Assembly (NCBI GenBank): GCA_015233145.1
Contig: JADFYI010000014.1
Coordinates: 1 to 32,068, forward strand
Direction of reading: 5' to 3'
DNA from: Candidatus Omnitrophota bacterium
GTDB taxonomy: Bacteria; Omnitrophota; Gorgyraeia; Zapsychrales; Fredricksoniimonadaceae
Length of the DNA: 32,068 bases
Below the pieces are notes generated by a model. It saw only the letters and a list, made by a program, of their open reading frames with translations, searched no databases and was not told the DNA's origin. The position numbers and the translations under genes are program-made. The first letter of the stretch is position 1; every line of letters starts with the position of its first letter. This document shows, in pieces, positions 4,797-22,170 of this stretch.

Positions 4797-4824
4797 TTGA
4801 TTTGCGGGGGGGGGGGGGTATAAA
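4797..4824 (+). promoter_or_regulatory. Putative phase-variable promoter with G13 spacer
   Basis: TTGATT (4797-4802) and TATAAA (4819-4824) are spaced by 16 bases, and 13 of those 16 are an uninterrupted G tract (4806-4818). Both hexamers resemble sigma70 -35 and -10 elements (4/6 and 5/6 matches). A transcript starting near 4831 would reach the GTG start at 4882 with AAGGGGAG 6 bases before it. Homopolymer tracts inside promoter spacers are a known cause of phase variation through slippage. The role is inferred from sequence only. The rest of the 4693-4881 interval is A/T-rich and shows no other feature. Confidence 0.5.
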
Positions 4825-4881
4825 CTAGTATACAAAAATTTAGATTAAGGCCTGTGACCGGGGCAACAAGGGGAGAATCAA

Positions 4882-5232
4882 GTGGCCAAAGCAAAGAAAA
4901 AAGTTGCGGCAGTCAATAAGGTTACGTTAAAAAATTCTCTCAAAGTGAGCGCGGCCAAGGAAGTCCTTAAAGAAGTTTCTTATGGAGCCGGGGTTTTGGC
5001 TCACAAGGTCAGCAAGGTTGGTAAAGTTGTCCATTCCGGAATTTGGAAAGATGCCCGGAGCGTTGTGCAGAAAAAAATTAATGCCATCAAGGGTTCATTT
5101 GCCAGGCAGATGAAATTCATACCCGCAAAAAAGAGTATCACAATTCCAGAAAAATTATCCCAAGAGCCAAAGGCAGCGCCGGTTGCCCGCGCAAGGTCCC
5201 GGAAAAAGAGCCCAACCCGTAAAGGAGGATAG
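4882..5232 (+). CDS. Unrecognised lysine-rich small protein heading a magnetosome operon
   Basis: A 116-residue very basic protein with no family I recognise. It starts MAKAKKKVAAVNKVTLKN, has a central helical region (about residues 20-75) and ends in a Pro/Ala/Arg/Lys-rich tail, ARSRKKSPTRKGG. No membrane segment or signal peptide is visible. The GTG start is supported by AAGGGGAG 6 bases upstream. The pentapeptide KSITI near residue 87 also occurs in the preceding 280-residue protein. It is followed after 4 bases by the 30-residue membrane peptide and then by MamA, so it is probably co-transcribed with magnetosome genes. A nucleic-acid-binding or acidic-membrane-binding role would fit the charge but is only a guess. 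Confidence 0.75.
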   Translation: MAKAKKKVAAVNKVTLKNSLKVSAAKEVLKEVSYGAGVLAHKVSKVGKVVHSGIWKDARSVVQKKINAIKGSFARQMKFIPAKKSITIPEKLSQEPKAAPVARARSRKKSPTRKGG

Positions 5233-5236
5233 GAAT

Positions 5237-5329
5237 ATGGAACCTATTTCATTGTCAACCGCGGCAATTATCCTGGTGTCTATGGCAGCGGGAGCGTGGA
5301 TTTCGGATCGCTTTAAAAAGAAAACATAG
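5237..5329 (+). CDS. 30-residue single-pass membrane peptide (micro-paralogue A)
   Basis: A complete 31-codon frame with GGAGG 5-9 bases before ATG 5237. The product begins MEPISLSTAAIILVSMAAGA and ends WISDRFKKKT: a hydrophobic helix (about residues 6-21) followed by a basic tail. It is clearly a paralogue of the next gene, whose N-terminus is MEPISLSMAGLILVSMAAGA; 16 of these first 20 residues are identical, and the DNA also remains similar. The conservation of the helix at the protein level in both copies argues for a real gene despite its size. It sits between the lysine-rich protein and MamA in a tight operon. Tiny membrane proteins are common in magnetosome clusters, but I cannot match this one to a named Mam protein. 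Confidence 0.75.
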   Translation: MEPISLSTAAIILVSMAAGAWISDRFKKKT

Positions 5330-5347: not shown

Positions 5348-5533
5348 ATGGAGCCGATCTCATTGTCCATGGCCGGACTTATTCTGGTATCTATGGCCGC
5401 AGGCGCGGCGCTTTCAAATTTCTTTGGAAAAAAGAAGTCATGTGCTGCCGGGGCTTCTGATGAGTCTGCCCAGGTTTCTGTTGATGAGGATAAGGAAAAA
5501 GCTATTAATGATCTCGTGTCGGGAAAGAAGTGA
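5348..5533 (+). CDS. 61-residue single-pass membrane protein (micro-paralogue B)
   Basis: A 61-residue protein that shares its N-terminal membrane helix with the 30-residue peptide directly upstream (MEPISLSMAGLILVSMAAGA). It then continues with a short basic stretch, NFFGKKKSC, and an acidic tail rich in Asp, Glu, Ser and Lys. The GAAGGGAAAA sequence upstream of ATG 5348 can serve as a ribosome-binding site. The stop overlaps the start of mamA (GTGA at 5530), which suggests translational coupling. The helix would place the acidic tail on one face of the membrane. A magnetosome-membrane location is inferred from position only, and no named family is recognised. Confidence 0.8.
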   Translation: MEPISLSMAGLILVSMAAGAALSNFFGKKKSCAAGASDESAQVSVDEDKEKAINDLVSGKK

Positions 5534-6213
5534 ATATCTCCACCTCCCCTAAAATGCGCTCCCGGATCCGCAAGGAATTAAAGTTTGCGCCGGTTGCTTT
5601 TCATTCCACGGCCATCCGGATTGTTGACAGGCTTACGAACGCCTACCAGAAGGCGTTTGTTTCCCCTGAAAAGATCCAGGTTGATGTTTACAAAGAACAG
5701 GGTTTTTCTGATTTTCAAAATGGCGATTACATCAAGGCCAGGGATTCTTTTTTTCGTTATCTTGACGAGACCAATGATCTGGACCCCAGCGTTCTTTATA
5801 TGCTTGCCATGTGTTACAAGAACATGGATGAGGACAAAGAGGCGATCGAGTTTTTGAAAAAAGCGGAAAGCCACGCCAAGAACGACCCCGACATCATCAA
5901 TGCACTCGGCGAGTGCCTGTATAACATTGAAGAATATACTGAGGCCATCACCTTCCTTGAAAAAGCCAGGAGGATTTCGCCTGCCAAGGCGGGCATTTAT
6001 TACCGGCTTGGCATTTGCCATGAGAAGATAAACGAGTCTCAAGAAGCCGAACAGTTTTATAAAAAAGCCATTGCCCTTGATCCAGGCAGGATCGAGTATC
6101 ATGAAACCCTGGGATTCCTTTATCAAGCCGAAGACCGGCATAAGGATGCGATTTCCTGTCTCAGGGACGCTTTGCATTCCCAGTGGCGTCAGAAACGAGG
6201 GGCGGGTGTCTAA
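5530..6213 (+). CDS. mamA: MamA-like TPR magnetosome-associated protein
   Basis: A 227-residue soluble protein made of about five tetratricopeptide repeats from residue 50 onward. Typical units are DFQNGDYIKARDSFFRYLDE, MLAMCYKNMDEDKEAIEFLK, ALGECLYNIEEYTEAITFLE, RLGICHEKINESQEAEQFYK and TLGFLYQAEDRHKDAISCLR. MamA coats the cytoplasmic side of magnetosomes and self-assembles as a scaffold for other proteins. Size, soluble all-TPR architecture and operon position fit MamA; TPR proteins are widespread, so the name rests partly on context. The GTG at 5530 overlaps the previous stop; ATG 5563 (MRSRIRKEL) is an alternative start. A receiver-domain gene follows 9 bases later. Confidence 0.75.
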   Translation: MNISTSPKMRSRIRKELKFAPVAFHSTAIRIVDRLTNAYQKAFVSPEKIQVDVYKEQGFSDFQNGDYIKARDSFFRYLDETNDLDPSVLYMLAMCYKNMDEDKEAIEFLKKAESHAKNDPDIINALGECLYNIEEYTEAITFLEKARRISPAKAGIYYRLGICHEKINESQEAEQFYKKAIALDPGRIEYHETLGFLYQAEDRHKDAISCLRDALHSQWRQKRGAGV

Positions 6214-6222
6214 TGAGGTTAC

Positions 6223-6744
6223 ATGATTGCAAAGATTCTTGTTGTTGACGATGAAAAAATGCTGCGCGAGAGGCTGAAAGGCCTTCTTGAGCTTGAGGAG
6301 TATGAGGTTTTTCTGGCCGAGAGCGGTAGAGAGGCGCTGGAGGTTTTGCGGGACAAAAAGCCGGAGATCGTTGTGACAGACATCCGCATGCCTGGCATGG
6401 ACGGGATCGAGCTTTTGGATAAAATCAAGGCCTTGAGCGCTGATACCGAGGTCATCATGTTGACCGGGCACGGAGACATGGAAAGCGTTGTTTTCGCACT
6501 CAGAAAAGGCGCGTTTGATTATATGCCCAAGCCCCTCAATTTTGATGAGCTTTGCATTGCCATTCAACGGGCGCTGGCACTTTCGAAACAGCGCCAGAAG
6601 CTTGTCGGGGTTGAGAAACTCATAGCGATCGCTGCCCAGCTTGAGACGTTTTTGATGGATGAGACTGTTTCCCAGAACCCCTTATTGAAAGCCAAGATTA
6701 TAGAGATCAAAGACCAGCTCACAGGGCTGGGGAACCGTTCTTGA
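6223..6744 (+). CDS. Single-domain response regulator (receiver) with helical tail
   Basis: A 173-residue CheY-like receiver protein. The phosphoacceptor is Asp53 in VVTDIRMPGMDGIELL, the acidic pair is Asp9/Asp10 in ILVVDDEK, and the switch residues are Thr81 (MLTGHGD) and Lys103 (MPKPLNFDEL). Residues 120-173 form a helical, amphipathic tail without a recognisable DNA-binding or enzymatic output domain. It would therefore act by protein contact once phosphorylated by a sensor kinase; no kinase gene is in the window. It follows mamA by 9 bases and is the last gene before the strong promoter at 6755, so it probably shares the mamA transcript. A receiver gene in a magnetosome operon is unusual and may link magnetosome positioning or synthesis to signalling. 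Confidence 0.9.
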   Translation: MIAKILVVDDEKMLRERLKGLLELEEYEVFLAESGREALEVLRDKKPEIVVTDIRMPGMDGIELLDKIKALSADTEVIMLTGHGDMESVVFALRKGAFDYMPKPLNFDELCIAIQRALALSKQRQKLVGVEKLIAIAAQLETFLMDETVSQNPLLKAKIIEIKDQLTGLGNRS

Positions 6745-13630: not shown

Positions 13631-14647
13631 ATGAGAATAAGAAGATTATTTATTTTTGTAATGACTTTTGTTTTGGGAGTGGCCTTGATCGCTCCGGCGA
13701 TGGCCGAAGGCAAGGTCACGCTGCTTAACGTCTCTTATGACCCGACACGCGAGTTCTATCAGGGGTTTAACAAGGCCTTTTGTGACCATTGGCTCAAGGA
13801 AACAGGCACAACGGTTGAGGTCAACCAGTCTCATGGCGGCAGCGGCAAACAGGCCCGCGCTGTCATTGATGGGCTTGAGGCCGATGTTGTGACCCTGGCT
13901 CTGGCCTATGACATTGACGCTATTGCCCAGAAGACCAGCCTTATCCCCAAGGATTGGCAGGCAAGGCTTGCGTATAACAGCGCGCCCTACACCTCCACCA
14001 TTGTTTTTCTGGTGCGCAAGGGGAACCCCAAGAATATTAAAGACTGGGATGATCTTGTGAAACCCGGCGTTGCTGTGATTACGCCGAATCCAAAGACCTC
14101 TGGCGGCGCCCGCTGGAATTATCTTGCGGCCTGGGGTTACGCGCTCAAGAAATGGAATAACGATGATAATAAGGCCAGGGAGTTTGTGACCGCCCTTTTT
14201 AAAAACGTGCCGGTCCTTGATTCCGGTGCGCGCGGTTCGACCACAACATTCGTTGAGCGCAAGATCGGGGATGTGCTTATTGCCTGGGAGAATGAGGCGT
14301 ATCTTGTGGTGAAGCAATTGGCCCAGGGAGAGTATGAGATTGTCACGCCGTCTTTAAGCATTCTTGCGGAGCCGTCAATCGCTTTGGTTGACGGTAATGT
14401 TGACCGCCACGCTACGCGCAAGGTGGCCCAGGCTTATCTGGAATACCTGTATTCTCCCGAAGGCCAGGAGATCGCGGCTAAAAATTATTACCGTCCCCGC
14501 CTGAAAGCGGTTGCGGATAAGTATGTTTCACAGTTCCAGAAGGTGGAGTTGATCACGATTGATGAGGTCTTTGGCGGCTGGCAGAAAGCGCAGAAGACTC
14601 ATTTTGCGGATCAAGGGACCTTTGATCAAATCTATCAAGTAAATTGA
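13631..14647 (+). CDS. sbp: Sulfate-binding periplasmic protein of ABC importer
   Basis: A 338-residue periplasmic solute-binding protein. A signal peptide of about 25 residues ends at APAMA-EG. The mature part starts [19 protein letters not shown] and contains [20 protein letters not shown] and the later [24 protein letters not shown], all typical of the Sbp/CysP sulfate/thiosulfate family. It captures sulfate and hands it to CysT/CysW. The gene is followed by a heptamer-repeat element and then the two permease genes and the ATPase, completing the importer. Sulfate import could serve assimilation or dissimilatory sulfur metabolism; no reductase genes are in the window. Confidence 0.95.
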
Positions 14648-14649
14648 GG

Positions 14650-14744
14650 AGCTATCAGCTTTCAGCTATCAGCCTTCAGCTTTGCAGGACAATTAGCGCT
14701 AATTATCCTACTGCTGATGGCTGACAGCCGATAGCTGACAGCTA
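14650..14744. repeat. Heptamer inverted-repeat element with palindromic core (copy 1)
   Basis: The left arm is built from AGCTATC/AGCTTTC-like heptamers (14650-14684), the core is AGGACAATTAGCGCTAATTATCCT-like (14686-14709, central AATTAGCGCTAATT perfectly palindromic), and the right arm is the complementary heptamers (CTGATGG CTGACAG CCGATAG CTGACAG). The whole element folds as one large imperfect hairpin filling the sbp-cysT gap. Confidence 0.85.
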
Positions 14745-14749
14745 GATAT

Positions 14750-15586
14750 ATGTCAAGACACTTCGTCAAACAAAGCATCCTACCCGGATTCTCGCTCTCT
14801 TTGGGGTTCACGATATTTTATCTGAGCCTTATCGTTTTAATTCCATTATCCATGATTTTTTTTAAGACCGCTTCCATGGGGTTTCCTGATTTTGTTCATG
14901 TCATCACTGCGCCGCGCACCCTGGCCGCTTACCGGTTGAGTTTTGGGACCGCGTTTGTGAGCGCGTGCATCAATGCCGTGTTCGGAGTCATTGTCGCGTG
15001 GGTTCTGGTGCGCTATTCTTTTCCGGGGAAAAGAATTGTTGACGCGCTGGTTGATTTTCCGTTAGCCCTTCCGACGGCTGTTGCAGGTATCGCGCTGACC
15101 GAACTCTATACGCCCACAGGATGGGTTGGGCAATATTTACAGGCCGCAGGGATCAAGGGCGCGTTCACTCCTTTTGGCATCACTATCGCGCTCACCTTTA
15201 TTGGCCTGCCGTTTGTGGTCAGGACCATTCAGCCGGTCTTGGAGGATATTGACCCCCAGATCGAAGAAGCCGCAGCCTCTTTGGGAGCCAACCGCTGGCA
15301 GACACTCACAAAGGTCATTTTTCCGGTGATCGTTCCGGCAGTTTTGACAGGAGTGACCCTGGCCTTTGCCAGGGGCATTGGCGAATACGGTTCAGTCATT
15401 TTTATTGCCGGGAACATGCCCATGAAGACCGAGATCGCGCCGCTTCTTATCATGACCAAACTCGAACAGTATGACTACACGGGCGCAACAGCCATTGCCA
15501 TCGGCATGCTCGTGATTTCATTTTTGCTTTTAGCGGCCGCGAATTTTTTTCAGTGGTTAACGTCCAGGAATTTAGGGAAAGCGTAG
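14750..15586 (+). CDS. cysT: Sulfate ABC transporter permease CysT
   Basis: A 278-residue inner-membrane permease with six predicted helices. The ABC permease EAA loop reads EEAAASLGANRWQTLTKVIF (about residues 172-191), and the end GEYGSVIFIAGNMPMKTEIA is characteristic of CysT/CysU. Together with CysW it forms the sulfate channel energised by CysA. The first start codon after the repeat element is ATG 14750; no strong ribosome-binding site is present because the repeat runs to within a few bases. CysW follows after 7 bases. Confidence 0.95.
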   Translation: MSRHFVKQSILPGFSLSLGFTIFYLSLIVLIPLSMIFFKTASMGFPDFVHVITAPRTLAAYRLSFGTAFVSACINAVFGVIVAWVLVRYSFPGKRIVDALVDFPLALPTAVAGIALTELYTPTGWVGQYLQAAGIKGAFTPFGITIALTFIGLPFVVRTIQPVLEDIDPQIEEAAASLGANRWQTLTKVIFPVIVPAVLTGVTLAFARGIGEYGSVIFIAGNMPMKTEIAPLLIMTKLEQYDYTGATAIAIGMLVISFLLLAAANFFQWLTSRNLGKA

Positions 15587-15593
15587 GGATATC

Positions 15594-16418
15594 ATGAGTG
15601 CGCGTACAGAACCCAGGATTGTCAGGTATTTTTTGATCTCGATAGCCCTGGCTTTTTTTGGCCTTTTTATTGTTCTGCCCCTGATTTGCGTTTTTCATAA
15701 TGCGTTTGCCAAGGGCTGGGTATTTTACCTGAAGACCTTGGAGCAGCCGGATGCGCTCGCGGCCATGAAAATGACCCTGATTGCGGCTGCCGTGGCTGTG
15801 CCTCTTAATTTGATATTCGGGGTGGCTGCCTCCTGGGCAATCGCCAAGTTTGAGTTTAAAGGCAAGGGGCTTCTTTTGTCGCTCATTGACCTTCCGCTTT
15901 CCGTGTCGCCCGTGATCGCGGGGCTTATTTTTATCCTGCTATTCGGCGCACAGGGGTTTTTAGGGCCTTGGCTCATTGCGCATAATATCCGGATCATTTT
16001 TGCCATGCCGGGGATTATTTTGGCCACAATTTTTGTCACATTTCCCATGGTTGCCCGCGAGCTTATTCCTGTCATGAAATCGCAGGGTAATGAAGAAGAA
16101 GAAGCGGCCATCACCCTGGGCGCCAGCGGGTGGAAAACGTTTTGGATGATTTCAGTCCCCAATATTCGCTGGGGGATTCTGTATGGAATCATCCTGTGCA
16201 ATGCGCGTGCCATGGGGGAGTTTGGTGCGGTCTCGGTAGTCTCTGGCCATATCCGGGGGCTCACAAATACCTTACCGTTACACGTTGAGATTTTGTATAA
16301 CGAATATCAATCCGCCGCAGCCTTTGCCACAGCATCGGTCCTGGCGCTTTTGGCCATTATCACCTTGATTGCCAAAAGTGCGGTCGAGGCGACCATTCGA
16401 CAGGGGCAGCGGCAGTAA
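15594..16418 (+). CDS. cysW: Sulfate ABC transporter permease CysW
   Basis: A 274-residue inner-membrane permease, partner of CysT. Its EAA loop is EEEEAAITLGASGWKTFWMI, and the C-terminal stretch ARAMGEFGAVSVVSGHIRG followed by LPLHVEILYNEY is the usual CysW signature. Five to six membrane helices are evident. GTAGGGAT before ATG 15594 can act as ribosome-binding site. It is separated from cysA by a short core-less heptamer repeat (16426-16479). The two permeases plus Sbp and CysA make a complete importer. Confidence 0.95.
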   Translation: MSARTEPRIVRYFLISIALAFFGLFIVLPLICVFHNAFAKGWVFYLKTLEQPDALAAMKMTLIAAAVAVPLNLIFGVAASWAIAKFEFKGKGLLLSLIDLPLSVSPVIAGLIFILLFGAQGFLGPWLIAHNIRIIFAMPGIILATIFVTFPMVARELIPVMKSQGNEEEEAAITLGASGWKTFWMISVPNIRWGILYGIILCNARAMGEFGAVSVVSGHIRGLTNTLPLHVEILYNEYQSAAAFATASVLALLAIITLIAKSAVEATIRQGQRQ

Positions 16419-16425
16419 AAATGCA

Positions 16426-16479
16426 GAGCTGACAGCTGAAAGCTGACGGCTGATAGCTTCTTTGCTGAAAGCAGAAAGC
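16426..16479. repeat. Heptamer repeat element, core-less (copy 2)
   Basis: Runs of AGCTGACAGCTGAAAGCTGA type heptamers fill the gap between cysW and cysA. It resembles the right arm of the other copies and lacks the AATTAGCGCTAATT core and a full left arm. Confidence 0.8.
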
Positions 16480-16483
16480 ACAT

Positions 16484-17551
16484 ATGGGTATCGAGTTAAA
16501 AAATGTATACAAAAAATTCGGCGACTTCAAGGCTTTGGATGATGTGAGCCTCAAGGTCGATGACGGCGAATTGCTGGCGCTGTTAGGGCCTTCCGGTTCT
16601 GGAAAAACCACGCTGTTGCGCGTTGTTGCGGGCCTTGATTTTTTTGATGAAGGCCAGGTCCTTTTCAGCGGCCGCGACGCGCAGAATCAGAAGGCGCGTG
16701 AGCGCGGGGTCGGGTTTGTTTTTCAGCATTATGCCCTTTTCCGGCACATGACGGTTTTTGATAATATCGCTTTTGGGCTGAACGTTCAGCCGCGCAAAAC
16801 ACGGCCTTCACGCCAGGAGATCAGGGCCAAGGTCATGGAGCTCTTGAAACTGGTCCAGCTCGAGTGGCTGGCTGAGCGTTACCCCTGGCAGCTCTCCGGC
16901 GGCCAGCGCCAGAGGATTGCGCTCGCAAGGGCCCTGGCGGTTCGGCCCAAAGTCCTTCTCCTCGATGAGCCGTTCGGGTCGCTGGACGCTCAAGTCAGGA
17001 AAGAACTTCGTGCCTGGTTAAGGCGTTTTCATGACGAGTTTCATATCACAACCATTTTTGTCACCCATGACCAGGAAGAGGCCCTGGAGGTTGCAGACCG
17101 GATTGTGGTCATGAATAAAGGCAGGATTGAACAGGCCGGAACTCCCGAGGATGTTTATCATAATCCGGTCAATGCCTTTGTCCTCAGTTTTTTGGGGAAT
17201 GTCAATTTTTTCCACTGCCGGCTGGAAGAGGGAAAGGCTGTGATCGGCAACACCACCCTGGAGGTCCCTGGCTTGTCTGTCGACAAGCCGCAGCCAGCCA
17301 AGCTGTATGTGCGTCCGAATCAGTTCAAGGTCTCTCGGGTCTTTTCAAAGGCAGCGTTCAAGGCTGTTGTTGAGTACGTGAATCCGGCCGGGACCATTGT
17401 GAAGATTAACCTCAAAACCGAGTCAGGCGAGCGGATCTATGTGGAAATAACTCAGGAAGAGCTGAAACAGCTTAAGATCCGAAAGCAGGAAAAGGTTTAT
17501 GTGAGCCTCAAGGACGTTTCTTATTCAGAATATGTCAAAGATAATTCGTAG
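16484..17551 (+). CDS. cysA: Sulfate ABC transporter ATP-binding protein CysA
   Basis: A 355-residue cytoplasmic ATPase. Walker A is GPSGSGKTT (residues 35-43), the ABC signature is [15 protein letters not shown], Walker B is [16 protein letters not shown] and the switch His is in [10 protein letters not shown]. The C-terminal third (from about residue 235) is the regulatory TOBE-type domain of the CysA/MalK group ([13 protein letters not shown]). It powers the importer formed by CysT and CysW. The gene ends directly in another heptamer element, which separates it from the signalling genes. Confidence 0.95.
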
Positions 17552-19830: not shown

Positions 19831-20652
19831 ATGAGCGAGCAGCGCGGGTTTTCCATTTTCAAGAAATCAGAAGAGATCGGCACCCTTGTTTTGAGCGCTT
19901 GGCGTGTGTTTACGGAAGGCGCGGGCCTTTTTTTAGAAACGCTTTATTGGATTTTTATCGGCCCCTTTAAGGGCAAGAGTGTTGATTTCAAGGCGCTTTT
20001 CCAGCAAATGGTTTTCATGGGGTACGAATCGGTCAAGATCGTGTTTTTTGTCACTTTTTTTACCGGCATTGTGTTGGCCATGCAGTCAGCGCATCAGTTA
20101 AGCAAGATGGGCGGAACTATTTATGTGGCGAGCCTTGTGACAATTTCGCTTTGCCGCGAGCTGGGCCCGGTTTTGACAGCCCTGGTCCTGGCCGGGCGTA
20201 TCGGGGCTTCAATCACTGCAGAGATAGGGTCCATGAAGGTCAACGAACAGATTGAAGCGCTCGACACCATGGGGATCAATCCGGTCCGCTATCTGGTTGT
20301 CCCAAAGTTCTTGGCGCTATTGTTCATGCTGCCGATTTTGACGGTCTTAGGGGACGCCTCAGGGATGCTGGGCGGTTACATGATCGGCGTTTATAATTTA
20401 AAAATCAATGCCGGGCTTTATGTGCAGACAGCGTTTAAATTCTTGACGATCAAGGATATTTACACCGGCCTTTCCAAAAGTTTGGTTTTTGCCATCATCA
20501 TCACCATGGTAGGGGTTTATCAGGGGTTAAAAACCAATGGCGGCGCGGTCGGGGTTGGCCGGGCCACAACGATCAGTGTGGTGGTCAGTTTTATCATGAT
20601 CATCCTTGCCGATTGTGTCATGACTGGAATTTATTTTTTTGTGAAGATGTGA
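19831..20652 (+). CDS. mlaE: MlaE-type ABC transporter permease (lipid transport)
   Basis: A 273-residue inner-membrane permease of the MlaE/YrbE family. Typical segments are TFFTGIVLAMQSAHQLSKMG, SLCRELGPVLTALVLAGRIG, ITAEIGSMKVNEQIEALDTM and INPVRYLVVPKFLALLFMLP, which form the reentrant and EAA-like core. With MlaF and MlaD it moves phospholipids or other lipids between inner and outer membranes, implying a Gram-negative envelope. It starts 2 bases after the STAS stop and ends 1 base before mlaF, a tight operon. The N-terminal 40 residues are an amphipathic extension. Confidence 0.94.
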   Translation: MSEQRGFSIFKKSEEIGTLVLSAWRVFTEGAGLFLETLYWIFIGPFKGKSVDFKALFQQMVFMGYESVKIVFFVTFFTGIVLAMQSAHQLSKMGGTIYVASLVTISLCRELGPVLTALVLAGRIGASITAEIGSMKVNEQIEALDTMGINPVRYLVVPKFLALLFMLPILTVLGDASGMLGGYMIGVYNLKINAGLYVQTAFKFLTIKDIYTGLSKSLVFAIIITMVGVYQGLKTNGGAVGVGRATTISVVVSFIMIILADCVMTGIYFFVKM

Positions 20653-20653
20653 T

Positions 20654-21421
20654 ATGGCCAATTCATCCGATATTATTCTTTCTGTCCGCCAAATCGAGAA
20701 GACTTATCACGGCCGCCGTGTGCTCGAGAATGTGTCCTTTGACGTGCGCCGAGGCGAGGTTTTTGTCATCATGGGCGGTTCAGGCTGCGGAAAAAGCACA
20801 ATGCTGAGGATCATGGCCGGCGGGGTGCCGCCGACTTCAGGCAAGGTTTTTTTTAACGGCCAGGATATGAGCGCTGTCAAAGGTGAGGCGCGGGAAAAAA
20901 TCCGCCGGCGCTTTGGCATGAGTTTCCAGTCTGCCGCGCTTCTGGATTACCTGACTGTGGAGGAAAACGTCAGTTTGCCGATCAAGGAGCACACCAGGCT
21001 CGCGGCCAATATTATCAGCATCATGGCGCAGACGAAATTGAACTTAGTGGGCCTTCAGGGGTTTGCCAAATTCCTGCCGGATGAGCTTTCCGGCGGCATG
21101 CGCAAGCGCGCCGGCCTGGCCCGGGCCATTGCCATGGACCCGGAGATCGTTTTTTATGATGAGCCGACAGCAGGCCTCGATCCGGTTGTTTGCGCGGTCG
21201 TAGACCAGTTAATCCTGGACTTGACCAAAAAACTTCAGATTACCTCCATTGTTGTCACGCATAATATGGAAAGCGTGTTTCGGATTGCTGACCGCGTGGC
21301 CATGCTTTATCAAGGCCGGCTTTTGCAGGTTGGCACGGCTGAGGAGATTAAAAATACGGCTGACCCTGTTGTCCAGCAGTTTATCCGCGGCAACATTGAA
21401 GGCCCGATTCAGATGTCATAA
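20654..21421 (+). CDS. mlaF: MlaF-type ABC transporter ATP-binding protein
   Basis: A 255-residue cytoplasmic ATPase. Walker A is GGSGCGKST (about residues 40-48), the signature is LSGGMRKRAGLARAIA, Walker B is EIVFYDEPTAGLDPVV and the switch His is in VVTHNMESV. The GGMRKR signature variant is typical for the MlaF/Ttg2A group. It energises the lipid transporter with MlaE. The C-terminus (IEGPIQMS) is close to the end of standard family members. mlaD follows after about 20 bases. Confidence 0.95.
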   Translation: MANSSDIILSVRQIEKTYHGRRVLENVSFDVRRGEVFVIMGGSGCGKSTMLRIMAGGVPPTSGKVFFNGQDMSAVKGEAREKIRRRFGMSFQSAALLDYLTVEENVSLPIKEHTRLAANIISIMAQTKLNLVGLQGFAKFLPDELSGGMRKRAGLARAIAMDPEIVFYDEPTAGLDPVVCAVVDQLILDLTKKLQITSIVVTHNMESVFRIADRVAMLYQGRLLQVGTAEEIKNTADPVVQQFIRGNIEGPIQMS

Positions 21422-21441
21422 TTTGAAAAAAAGGAATGGGT

Positions 21442-22170
21442 ATGCGGATTAATAATGAGACAAAAATCGGGTTAATGGTGATTGTGGGTGCTGTTATTTT
21501 GCTCGGCATCACGGTCAAGGCCGGAAATTTTAAATTCAAGAAAGACGGCTACCGGATTGTAACAGCTTTTAATGATATTGACGGCGTCAGCCGTAACTCG
21601 CCGGTCATGCTCAATGGGCTGGAAATTGGGGTTGTGGAGGATATCCAGATTAAATACGGGCCAGACCAGACGGCCATGGAATTGACATTATGGCTGAATA
21701 ATACAGCGAAGCTCAAAGACGGGGCCAGGGCCATGATCAAGAACCTTGGGTTTATGGGCGAAAAATACATTGCCCTCACAGCGGGTGACCCGCACGCCGC
21801 GTATCTTCAGCCAGGAGCCACAATCCCTGGCCAGGCGCCAATAGATTTTAATCAGCTGATGAACGATGGCCATGAATTTTTGGGCAAAGCCAATGAAATC
21901 GCTTCCAATATCGATCAGCGCTTAAAAACGAATCAAAAGAACATTGACGATAGCCTGGCCAATCTTAACGTGACCATGACGCATATGTCGTCTTTGACAG
22001 AGCATCTCGACAAGATTGTGTCTGTGCATGAAGCTAATATTGATAACATTTTAACCAATTTCGATGCCATGTCGCTTCATTTGAAGGGCGCTTCGGGCAA
22101 TCTGGAAGAGATGTCGGCTGATCTCAAAAGAAATCCATGGAAGCTCTTGTTCCGTGCCAAGGAAAAATAG
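21442..22170 (+). CDS. mlaD: MlaD-type MCE-domain lipid-binding protein
   Basis: A 242-residue protein with an N-terminal membrane anchor (about residues 8-26, KIGLMVIVGAVILLGITV). An MCE domain follows (about 35-115: YRIVTAFNDIDGVSRNSPVM, LNGLEIGVVEDIQI, KNLGFMGEKYIALTAG), then a long helical region ending near the C-terminus. MCE proteins form hexameric lipid-binding rings on the periplasmic face of the inner membrane. The start at ATG 21442 is preferred over ATG 21436 because AAGGA lies 6-7 bases before it. It completes the MlaEFD transporter; MlaB would be supplied by one of the STAS genes, while MlaC and MlaA homologues are not in the window. Confidence 0.93.
   Translation: MRINNETKIGLMVIVGAVILLGITVKAGNFKFKKDGYRIVTAFNDIDGVSRNSPVMLNGLEIGVVEDIQIKYGPDQTAMELTLWLNNTAKLKDGARAMIKNLGFMGEKYIALTAGDPHAAYLQPGATIPGQAPIDFNQLMNDGHEFLGKANEIASNIDQRLKTNQKNIDDSLANLNVTMTHMSSLTEHLDKIVSVHEANIDNILTNFDAMSLHLKGASGNLEEMSADLKRNPWKLLFRAKEK

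Follow-up and report, generated by a model that had tools for sequence, protein, structure and literature searches.

A poly-G promoter spacer ahead of a magnetosome operon in Omnitrophota as a probable phase-variable switch

Introduction

Phase variation through the slippage of simple repeats is best known from the surface structures that host-associated bacteria carry. In the porA, fetA and opc genes of Neisseria, it relies on homopolymers located between the -10 and -35 elements, i.e., a pure G or C tract separates the two hexamers, its length differs between strains, and the resulting spacing sets the strength of the promoter (PMC2791445; PMC5320596). A similar arrangement was reported for a lipid A gene, where a homopolymer, in this case poly(A), occupies the -35/-10 spacer and a mixture of tract lengths was found at the level of reads (PMC4514472). 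Phase variation can also affect the protein itself, as in Neisseria gonorrhoeae, where a repeat tract alters the last residues of the product (PMC5320596).

Here we describe a locus that places the promoter-spacer design on genes of an intracellular organelle and an actin filament, in uncultured environmental bacteria. The locus lies in a 32,068-nt stretch of DNA from a Candidatus Omnitrophota genome (contig JADFYI010000014.1 of assembly GCA_015233145.1; this whole stretch is hereafter the window, and its genome is G000). A first-pass annotation of the window had noted an unbroken run of 13 G in the spacer of a promoter preceding a magnetosome operon, and had raised the possibility that the operon is phase variable. 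We favor the same reading, to which we assign a probability of roughly 0.75, namely that positions 4797-4824 form a switch of the porA/opc/fetA type, driven by slipped-strand mispairing in the promoter spacer and acting on an operon for magnetosome organisation. This function is deduced from sequence.

The Neisseria genes encode surface antigens of host-associated bacteria and are supported by experiments on slippage and expression, whereas the evidence for the magnetosome operon of this uncultured environmental phylum is comparative only. The lipid A system likewise differs in that it concerns poly(A) and rests on reads, while the Omnitrophota tract is poly-G and known from assemblies. As for the gonococcal C-terminal variation, its parallel is found in the mamA genes of the relatives, whose 3' tracts would act in the same manner, and not in the window promoter. 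On the functional side, the closest counterpart is Desulfovibrio magneticus RS-1, in which a set of coiled-coil and actin-like proteins (mamK, mad20, mad23, mad25, mad26 and mad28) controls magnetosome positioning (PMC12748827). The poly-G operon of the relatives carries a comparable pair, a coiled-coil-like protein and MamK. The two systems differ in that the available part of the RS-1 source describes no switchable promoter, and in that neither the first gene of the Omnitrophota operon (orf116) nor its coiled-coil gene was matched to any Mad protein.

Literature searches combining magnetosomes with phase variation returned only passing mentions, with no paper devoted to the subject by title or abstract, and searches combining magnetosomes with bet-hedging likewise returned only passing mentions. 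As far as could be found, the mechanism is known, yet its use on magnetosome genes does not appear in the literature searched, in line with the first-pass annotation, whose author knew of no magnetosome operon described as phase variable.

Results and discussion

The promoter consists of a -35 element, TTGATT (4797-4802, plus strand), a 16-nt spacer (4803-4818) composed of TGC (4803-4805) and the unbroken G13 homopolymer (4806-4818), and a -10 element, TATAAA (4819-4824), both hexamers being read from the sequence. The first-pass annotation had given this arrangement with exact coordinates, and had also correctly read the genes behind it as one with a ribosome-binding site, two small membrane-protein ORFs and mamA. 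Taking a sigma-70-type promoter to be a -35 and a -10 hexamer 16-18 nt apart, the window element qualifies, with hexamer matches of 4/6 and 5/6 at 16 nt; the hexamers of the orthologous promoters are better. A simple, strict promoter scan did not list the 4797-4824 element, because its -10 ends in A, without the T at position 6.

The operon opens with orf116, whose product is a small, lysine-rich protein of 116 aa (4882-5232, plus strand; GTG start at 4882, ribosome-binding site AAGGGGAG), for which no match was found in Pfam or NCBIfam and whose presence marks the poly-G promoter among the relatives. It is followed on the same strand by ORFs for a 30-aa small membrane protein beginning MEPISLS (5237-5329) and for a 61-aa one, mini2 (5348-5533), homologues of which lie 3' of mamK in two relatives (G011 and G030) and ahead of mamA in a third (G014). 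Next comes a gene for a MamA-like TPR protein (5530-6213, plus strand), the 3' end of which is G-rich (CGAGGGGCGGGT) without containing a pure tract. The response regulator located immediately 3' of mamA (6223-6744, plus strand), which is a mamA neighbour in G014 as well, possibly shares the operon transcript.

A magnetosome gene cluster, with MamB/MamM-type transporters and MamE/O-type proteases, fills the remainder of the window. The magnetochrome domain (PF18509) scored above the Pfam cutoff in three window proteins, meeting our criterion for such a cluster, and the matches to MamA, MamB, MamM and MamP were under their NCBIfam cutoffs. Among the relatives that have a name, those with a clear match to mamA all belong to Candidatus Omnitrophota, and a plasmid search with the window region gave no match. 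Genes for a complete sulfate ABC transporter and for Mla-type lipid transport also lie in the cluster (13631-17551 and 19831-22170); Mla genes and cysA are retained in the cluster of G030 (L076), and a sulfate transporter adjoins mamA in G029 (L073).

Within its own genome the tract is exceptional. G13 is the sole run of G or C longer than 8 in the 1.81 Mb of G000, G-rich debris at one contig end excepted; the remaining runs are all of 8, and the other G8 runs lie in long stop-free frames, apart from one close to a contig end. Under a first-order Markov model, 0.002 runs of at least 13 would be expected in the window and 0.12 across the whole genome; the model in fact over-predicts runs, with ~70 of at least 8 expected vs. 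~10 seen. The debris occupies contig C2 from its start to about base 160 (L001:1-160), and is possibly a place where the assembly hit another long G tract.

The first-pass annotation had called for a comparison of tract length in related genomes. Running an orf116 profile against 384 genomes from the class and 81 from the order yielded clear homologues in seven genomes (G000, G003, G011, G014, G026, G027 and G029) and a short homologue in an eighth (G030). All eight, representing seven genera of one family, carry a G tract just 5' of the -10 element. The tract is pure in seven of them, with 8, 9, 10, 10, 11, 13 and at least 17 G, whereas in G026 it is G-rich but interrupted, and lies where a contig ends. 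Weak orf116-like matches in G298, G320, G047 and G192 (E ~1e-5) had no G8 run in their 1.5-kb flanks and were not counted.

The spacer measures 16 nt in the window (TTGATT-TGC-G13-TATAAA) and in G014 (TTGACT-TCC-G10-TGG-TATAAA), 15 nt in G003 (TGGACT-TCGC-G11-TATAAT), 14 nt in G027 (TTGAAT-TCCGC-G9-TAGAAT) and 13 nt in G030 (TTGACT-TC-G8-TGA-TATAAA); G029 reads G10-TGG-TATATAAT, with several -35 candidates, and G011 reads G17-TATATAAT, at a contig start. A pure homopolymer of at least 8 between the -35 and -10 elements, which we required of a candidate switch, is thus found as G13 in the window, as G8-G11 in five other promoters and as G17 at the contig start. The -10 element of the relatives (TATAAA, TATAAT, TATATAAT or TAGAAT) either abuts the tract or lies 3 nt beyond it, and most orf116 promoters have a TTGAYT-like -35 element 5' of the tract. 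Hence the tract is retained in eight of eight genomes while its length varies among them and takes the distance between -35 and -10 across the critical range.

This conservation does not extend to the surrounding DNA: upstream of the tract, from base -100 to base -16, similarity was at the shuffled level in most pairs, yet the tract and the TTGAYT-like element persisted. Moreover, runs of at least 10 G with TATAWW within 5 nt occur only five times in the 384 class genomes, and four of the five are orf116 promoters. The idea that G8 followed by TATA is a common promoter type in the class was rejected, as real and reversed patterns were about equally frequent and only the long runs described here exceeded the control. 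Several aspects limit these comparisons. They were made between different genera and not strains, and the -35 calls are weak in places (4/6 in the window; in G030 an alternative TTGCTT at 17 nt vs. TTGACT at 13; G029 ambiguous). In addition, tract lengths are those of the assembly consensus, and long tracts at contig ends (the G17 above and a G23 described below) are unreliable.

The main rival to the switch is a static conserved element, i.e., a stretch that tunes the promoter or binds a regulator by acting as a stiff G-rich spacer, as a binding site or through a tendency to form G-quadruplexes, with drift in length being tolerated and no switching taking place. Such an element would account for the conserved position directly 5' of the -10 in eight genomes, and also for the G10-TGG variant shared by two genera (G014 and G029), as might be expected of a fixed element. 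However, it leaves unexplained why seven of the eight tracts have stayed pure when any one point mutation is enough to break a G run, and why tract length and the spacer (13 to 16 nt) vary as they do. We regard this explanation as unlikely.

Additional evidence on this point comes from the operons themselves. In the relatives, the gene order is orf116, a 155-aa coiled-coil-like protein, MamK, and then a small membrane protein and/or mamA. MamK of G029 scored 429 bits against NF040964 (cutoff 400), and MamK lies behind the poly-G promoter in G003, G011, G014, G026 and G030 as well. Given that the positioning of magnetosomes in Desulfovibrio magneticus is carried out by MamK together with coiled-coil Mad proteins (PMC12748827), an operon of this composition is a plausible target for a switch. 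The window operon is without these middle genes, and no MamK was detected in G000 (80% complete), so the presence of MamK downstream of the poly-G promoter, another of our criteria, was not met in this genome. Consequently, it is mainly from the relatives that we infer an effect on magnetosome organisation, and the phenotype is less clear for the window genome. The tract is likewise absent from two mamK operons that have no orf116; at the equivalent place, these have ordinary promoters, TTGATT-16-TATAGT in G016 and TTGACA-17-TATAAA in G320 (spacing counted from the sequence). Since these homologous operons keep the canonical spacing with no tract, the promoter and its spacing are the constant part and the tract the optional, variable part, in disagreement with a static element.

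Mutation alone could also produce long G tracts. In GnT motifs, T:A to G:C rates are up to >1000-fold higher (PMC12344412), and a G run followed by T could thus grow by T-to-G substitution and slippage as a neutral hotspot, without any selected function. In agreement with this, a T follows every intact promoter tract in the orf116 set. A hotspot would, however, act on any G run, yet runs of at least 9 G are rare (0-9 per genome in the mam-bearing set), and 16 of the 63 found in 14 mam-bearing genomes are located at an orf116 promoter or no more than 150 bp from mamA, where 0.05 are expected. Although these targets were picked after the pattern had been seen and the runs were tallied manually from tables, neither could account for an excess of this size. 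The class-wide G8 and TATA comparison mentioned above speaks against a hotspot too, as the only runs exceeding the reversed control are those of the orf116 promoter. GnT mutation may well help the tracts to grow, but it leaves their concentration at orf116 and mamA unexplained, and as the whole explanation we find it distinctly improbable.

Finally, the tracts could be artefacts of sequencing or assembly, such as dark-cycle G calls or contig-end debris. The ~160 bases of debris with which C2 starts are of this kind, and several tracts do lie at contig ends. The window tract, by contrast, is internal to a 32.6-kb contig, as are those of G014, G003, G027 and G030, which come from several projects, and independent assemblies would not share an artefact at the same orthologous promoter. 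HiSeq 2000, 2500 and 4000 instruments are four-colour machines. MAGs with names such as nXX and nDJH derive from a survey sequenced on these instruments (PMC7602337). Several relatives bear names of that survey, which disfavours a two-colour poly-G artefact; this candidate was rejected. We give artefact as a whole very little credence. The two alternatives that the first-pass annotation had left standing, a neutral tract and a base-calling artefact, therefore fit less well than the switch.

Differences in tract length were also observed within a single assembly. In G026, the end of contig C97 and the start of C140 are identical to either side of a tract with 9 G in one and 10 in the other, and C208 and C162 have common sequence 3' of a tract with 10 and 23 G, respectively. 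The orf116 promoter tract of G029 is itself a junction between two contigs, each of which has G10 there, and several contigs terminate at G tracts. Assembly breaks at tracts are expected from mixed lengths, yet they are also expected from sequencing trouble at long G runs, and the lengths that differ between overlapping contigs belong to G026 tracts other than that at 4806-4818.

Taken together, these comparisons support the phase-variable reading: the tract and the -10 are kept in eight genomes of seven genera despite diverged flanks, length and spacer vary, tract-less operons hold to 16 and 17 nt, and other tracts differ between overlapping contigs. In the switch that we propose, 4797-4824 would be the core promoter of the magnetosome-organisation operon, with a hypermutable G tract for a spacer. 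Slipped-strand mispairing at replication would add G's to the tract or remove them, and the changed distance between -35 and -10 would set transcription to high (about 16-18 nt), low (15 nt) or off (14 nt or less), so that the cells of a population would come to differ in magnetosome organisation. The spacers of 16, 16, 15, 14 and 13 nt look like snapshots of different states of this switch. Slippage at 4806-4818 in a living population, its effect on transcription and the phenotype of the cell are inferences. If they hold, magnetotaxis would be hedged at the population level, magnetically collected samples would be biased to cells in one state, and the presence of the genes alone would not predict ordered magnetosomes in a cell.

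Poly-G tracts were also found at other magnetosome genes. Nine mamA genes, two each in G014 and G298 and one each in G023, G027, G029, G030 and G047, have G8-G12 near their 3' end (L024, L030, L031, L033, L034, L035, L036, L140 and L145), with the G on the sense strand in every case, such that one G more or less alters the protein tail. In four of the nine, the tract ends 7-9 nt 5' of the next ATG, and we infer that at this distance it could pair with the anti-Shine-Dalgarno sequence. A conserved glycine tail was rejected as the cause of these tracts, as the tails are not conserved and tract-less mamA genes end in unrelated residues. Tracts were also found toward the 5' end of mamA: that of G016 (G8, L079:9836) is in frame from the homologous start, and that of G027 (G10, L070:14189) is out of frame and would need 9 or 12 G. 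Judging by these frames alone, the 5' tract is likely a translational switch. The occurrence of tracts at other positions that control expression, one of them frame-shifting, is a further point against a static promoter element.

A G9-G10 tract also lies ~20-26 nt 5' of the start of orthologous double-receiver histidine kinases in G027 (L072:9719) and G026 (L276:3924 / L287:26), proteins of 542 and 547 aa that share 77% identity. The tract has 9 vs. 10 G on the two overlapping G026 contigs, and may represent a second contingency locus.

These tracts raise a broader hypothesis, which we hold only tentatively and at slightly less than even odds: that a group of mutually independent poly-G contingency loci controls magnetosome formation in these Omnitrophota, as bet-hedging for magnetotaxis. 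The set would include the orf116/mamK promoter spacer, the frame-shifting tract at the 5' end of mamA and the tail-changing tracts at the 3' end of mamA paralogues, some of which lie at ribosome-binding distance from the next start, and perhaps also the leader of a hybrid histidine kinase. If so, a population would hold many combinations of organelle states, and this would be, to our knowledge, the first phase-variable bacterial organelle of such a kind.

One more long run was seen at a contig end: contig C47 of G011 (L077:19980-20000) ends in 21 C, corresponding to 21 G on the sense strand, shortly 5' of mamA.
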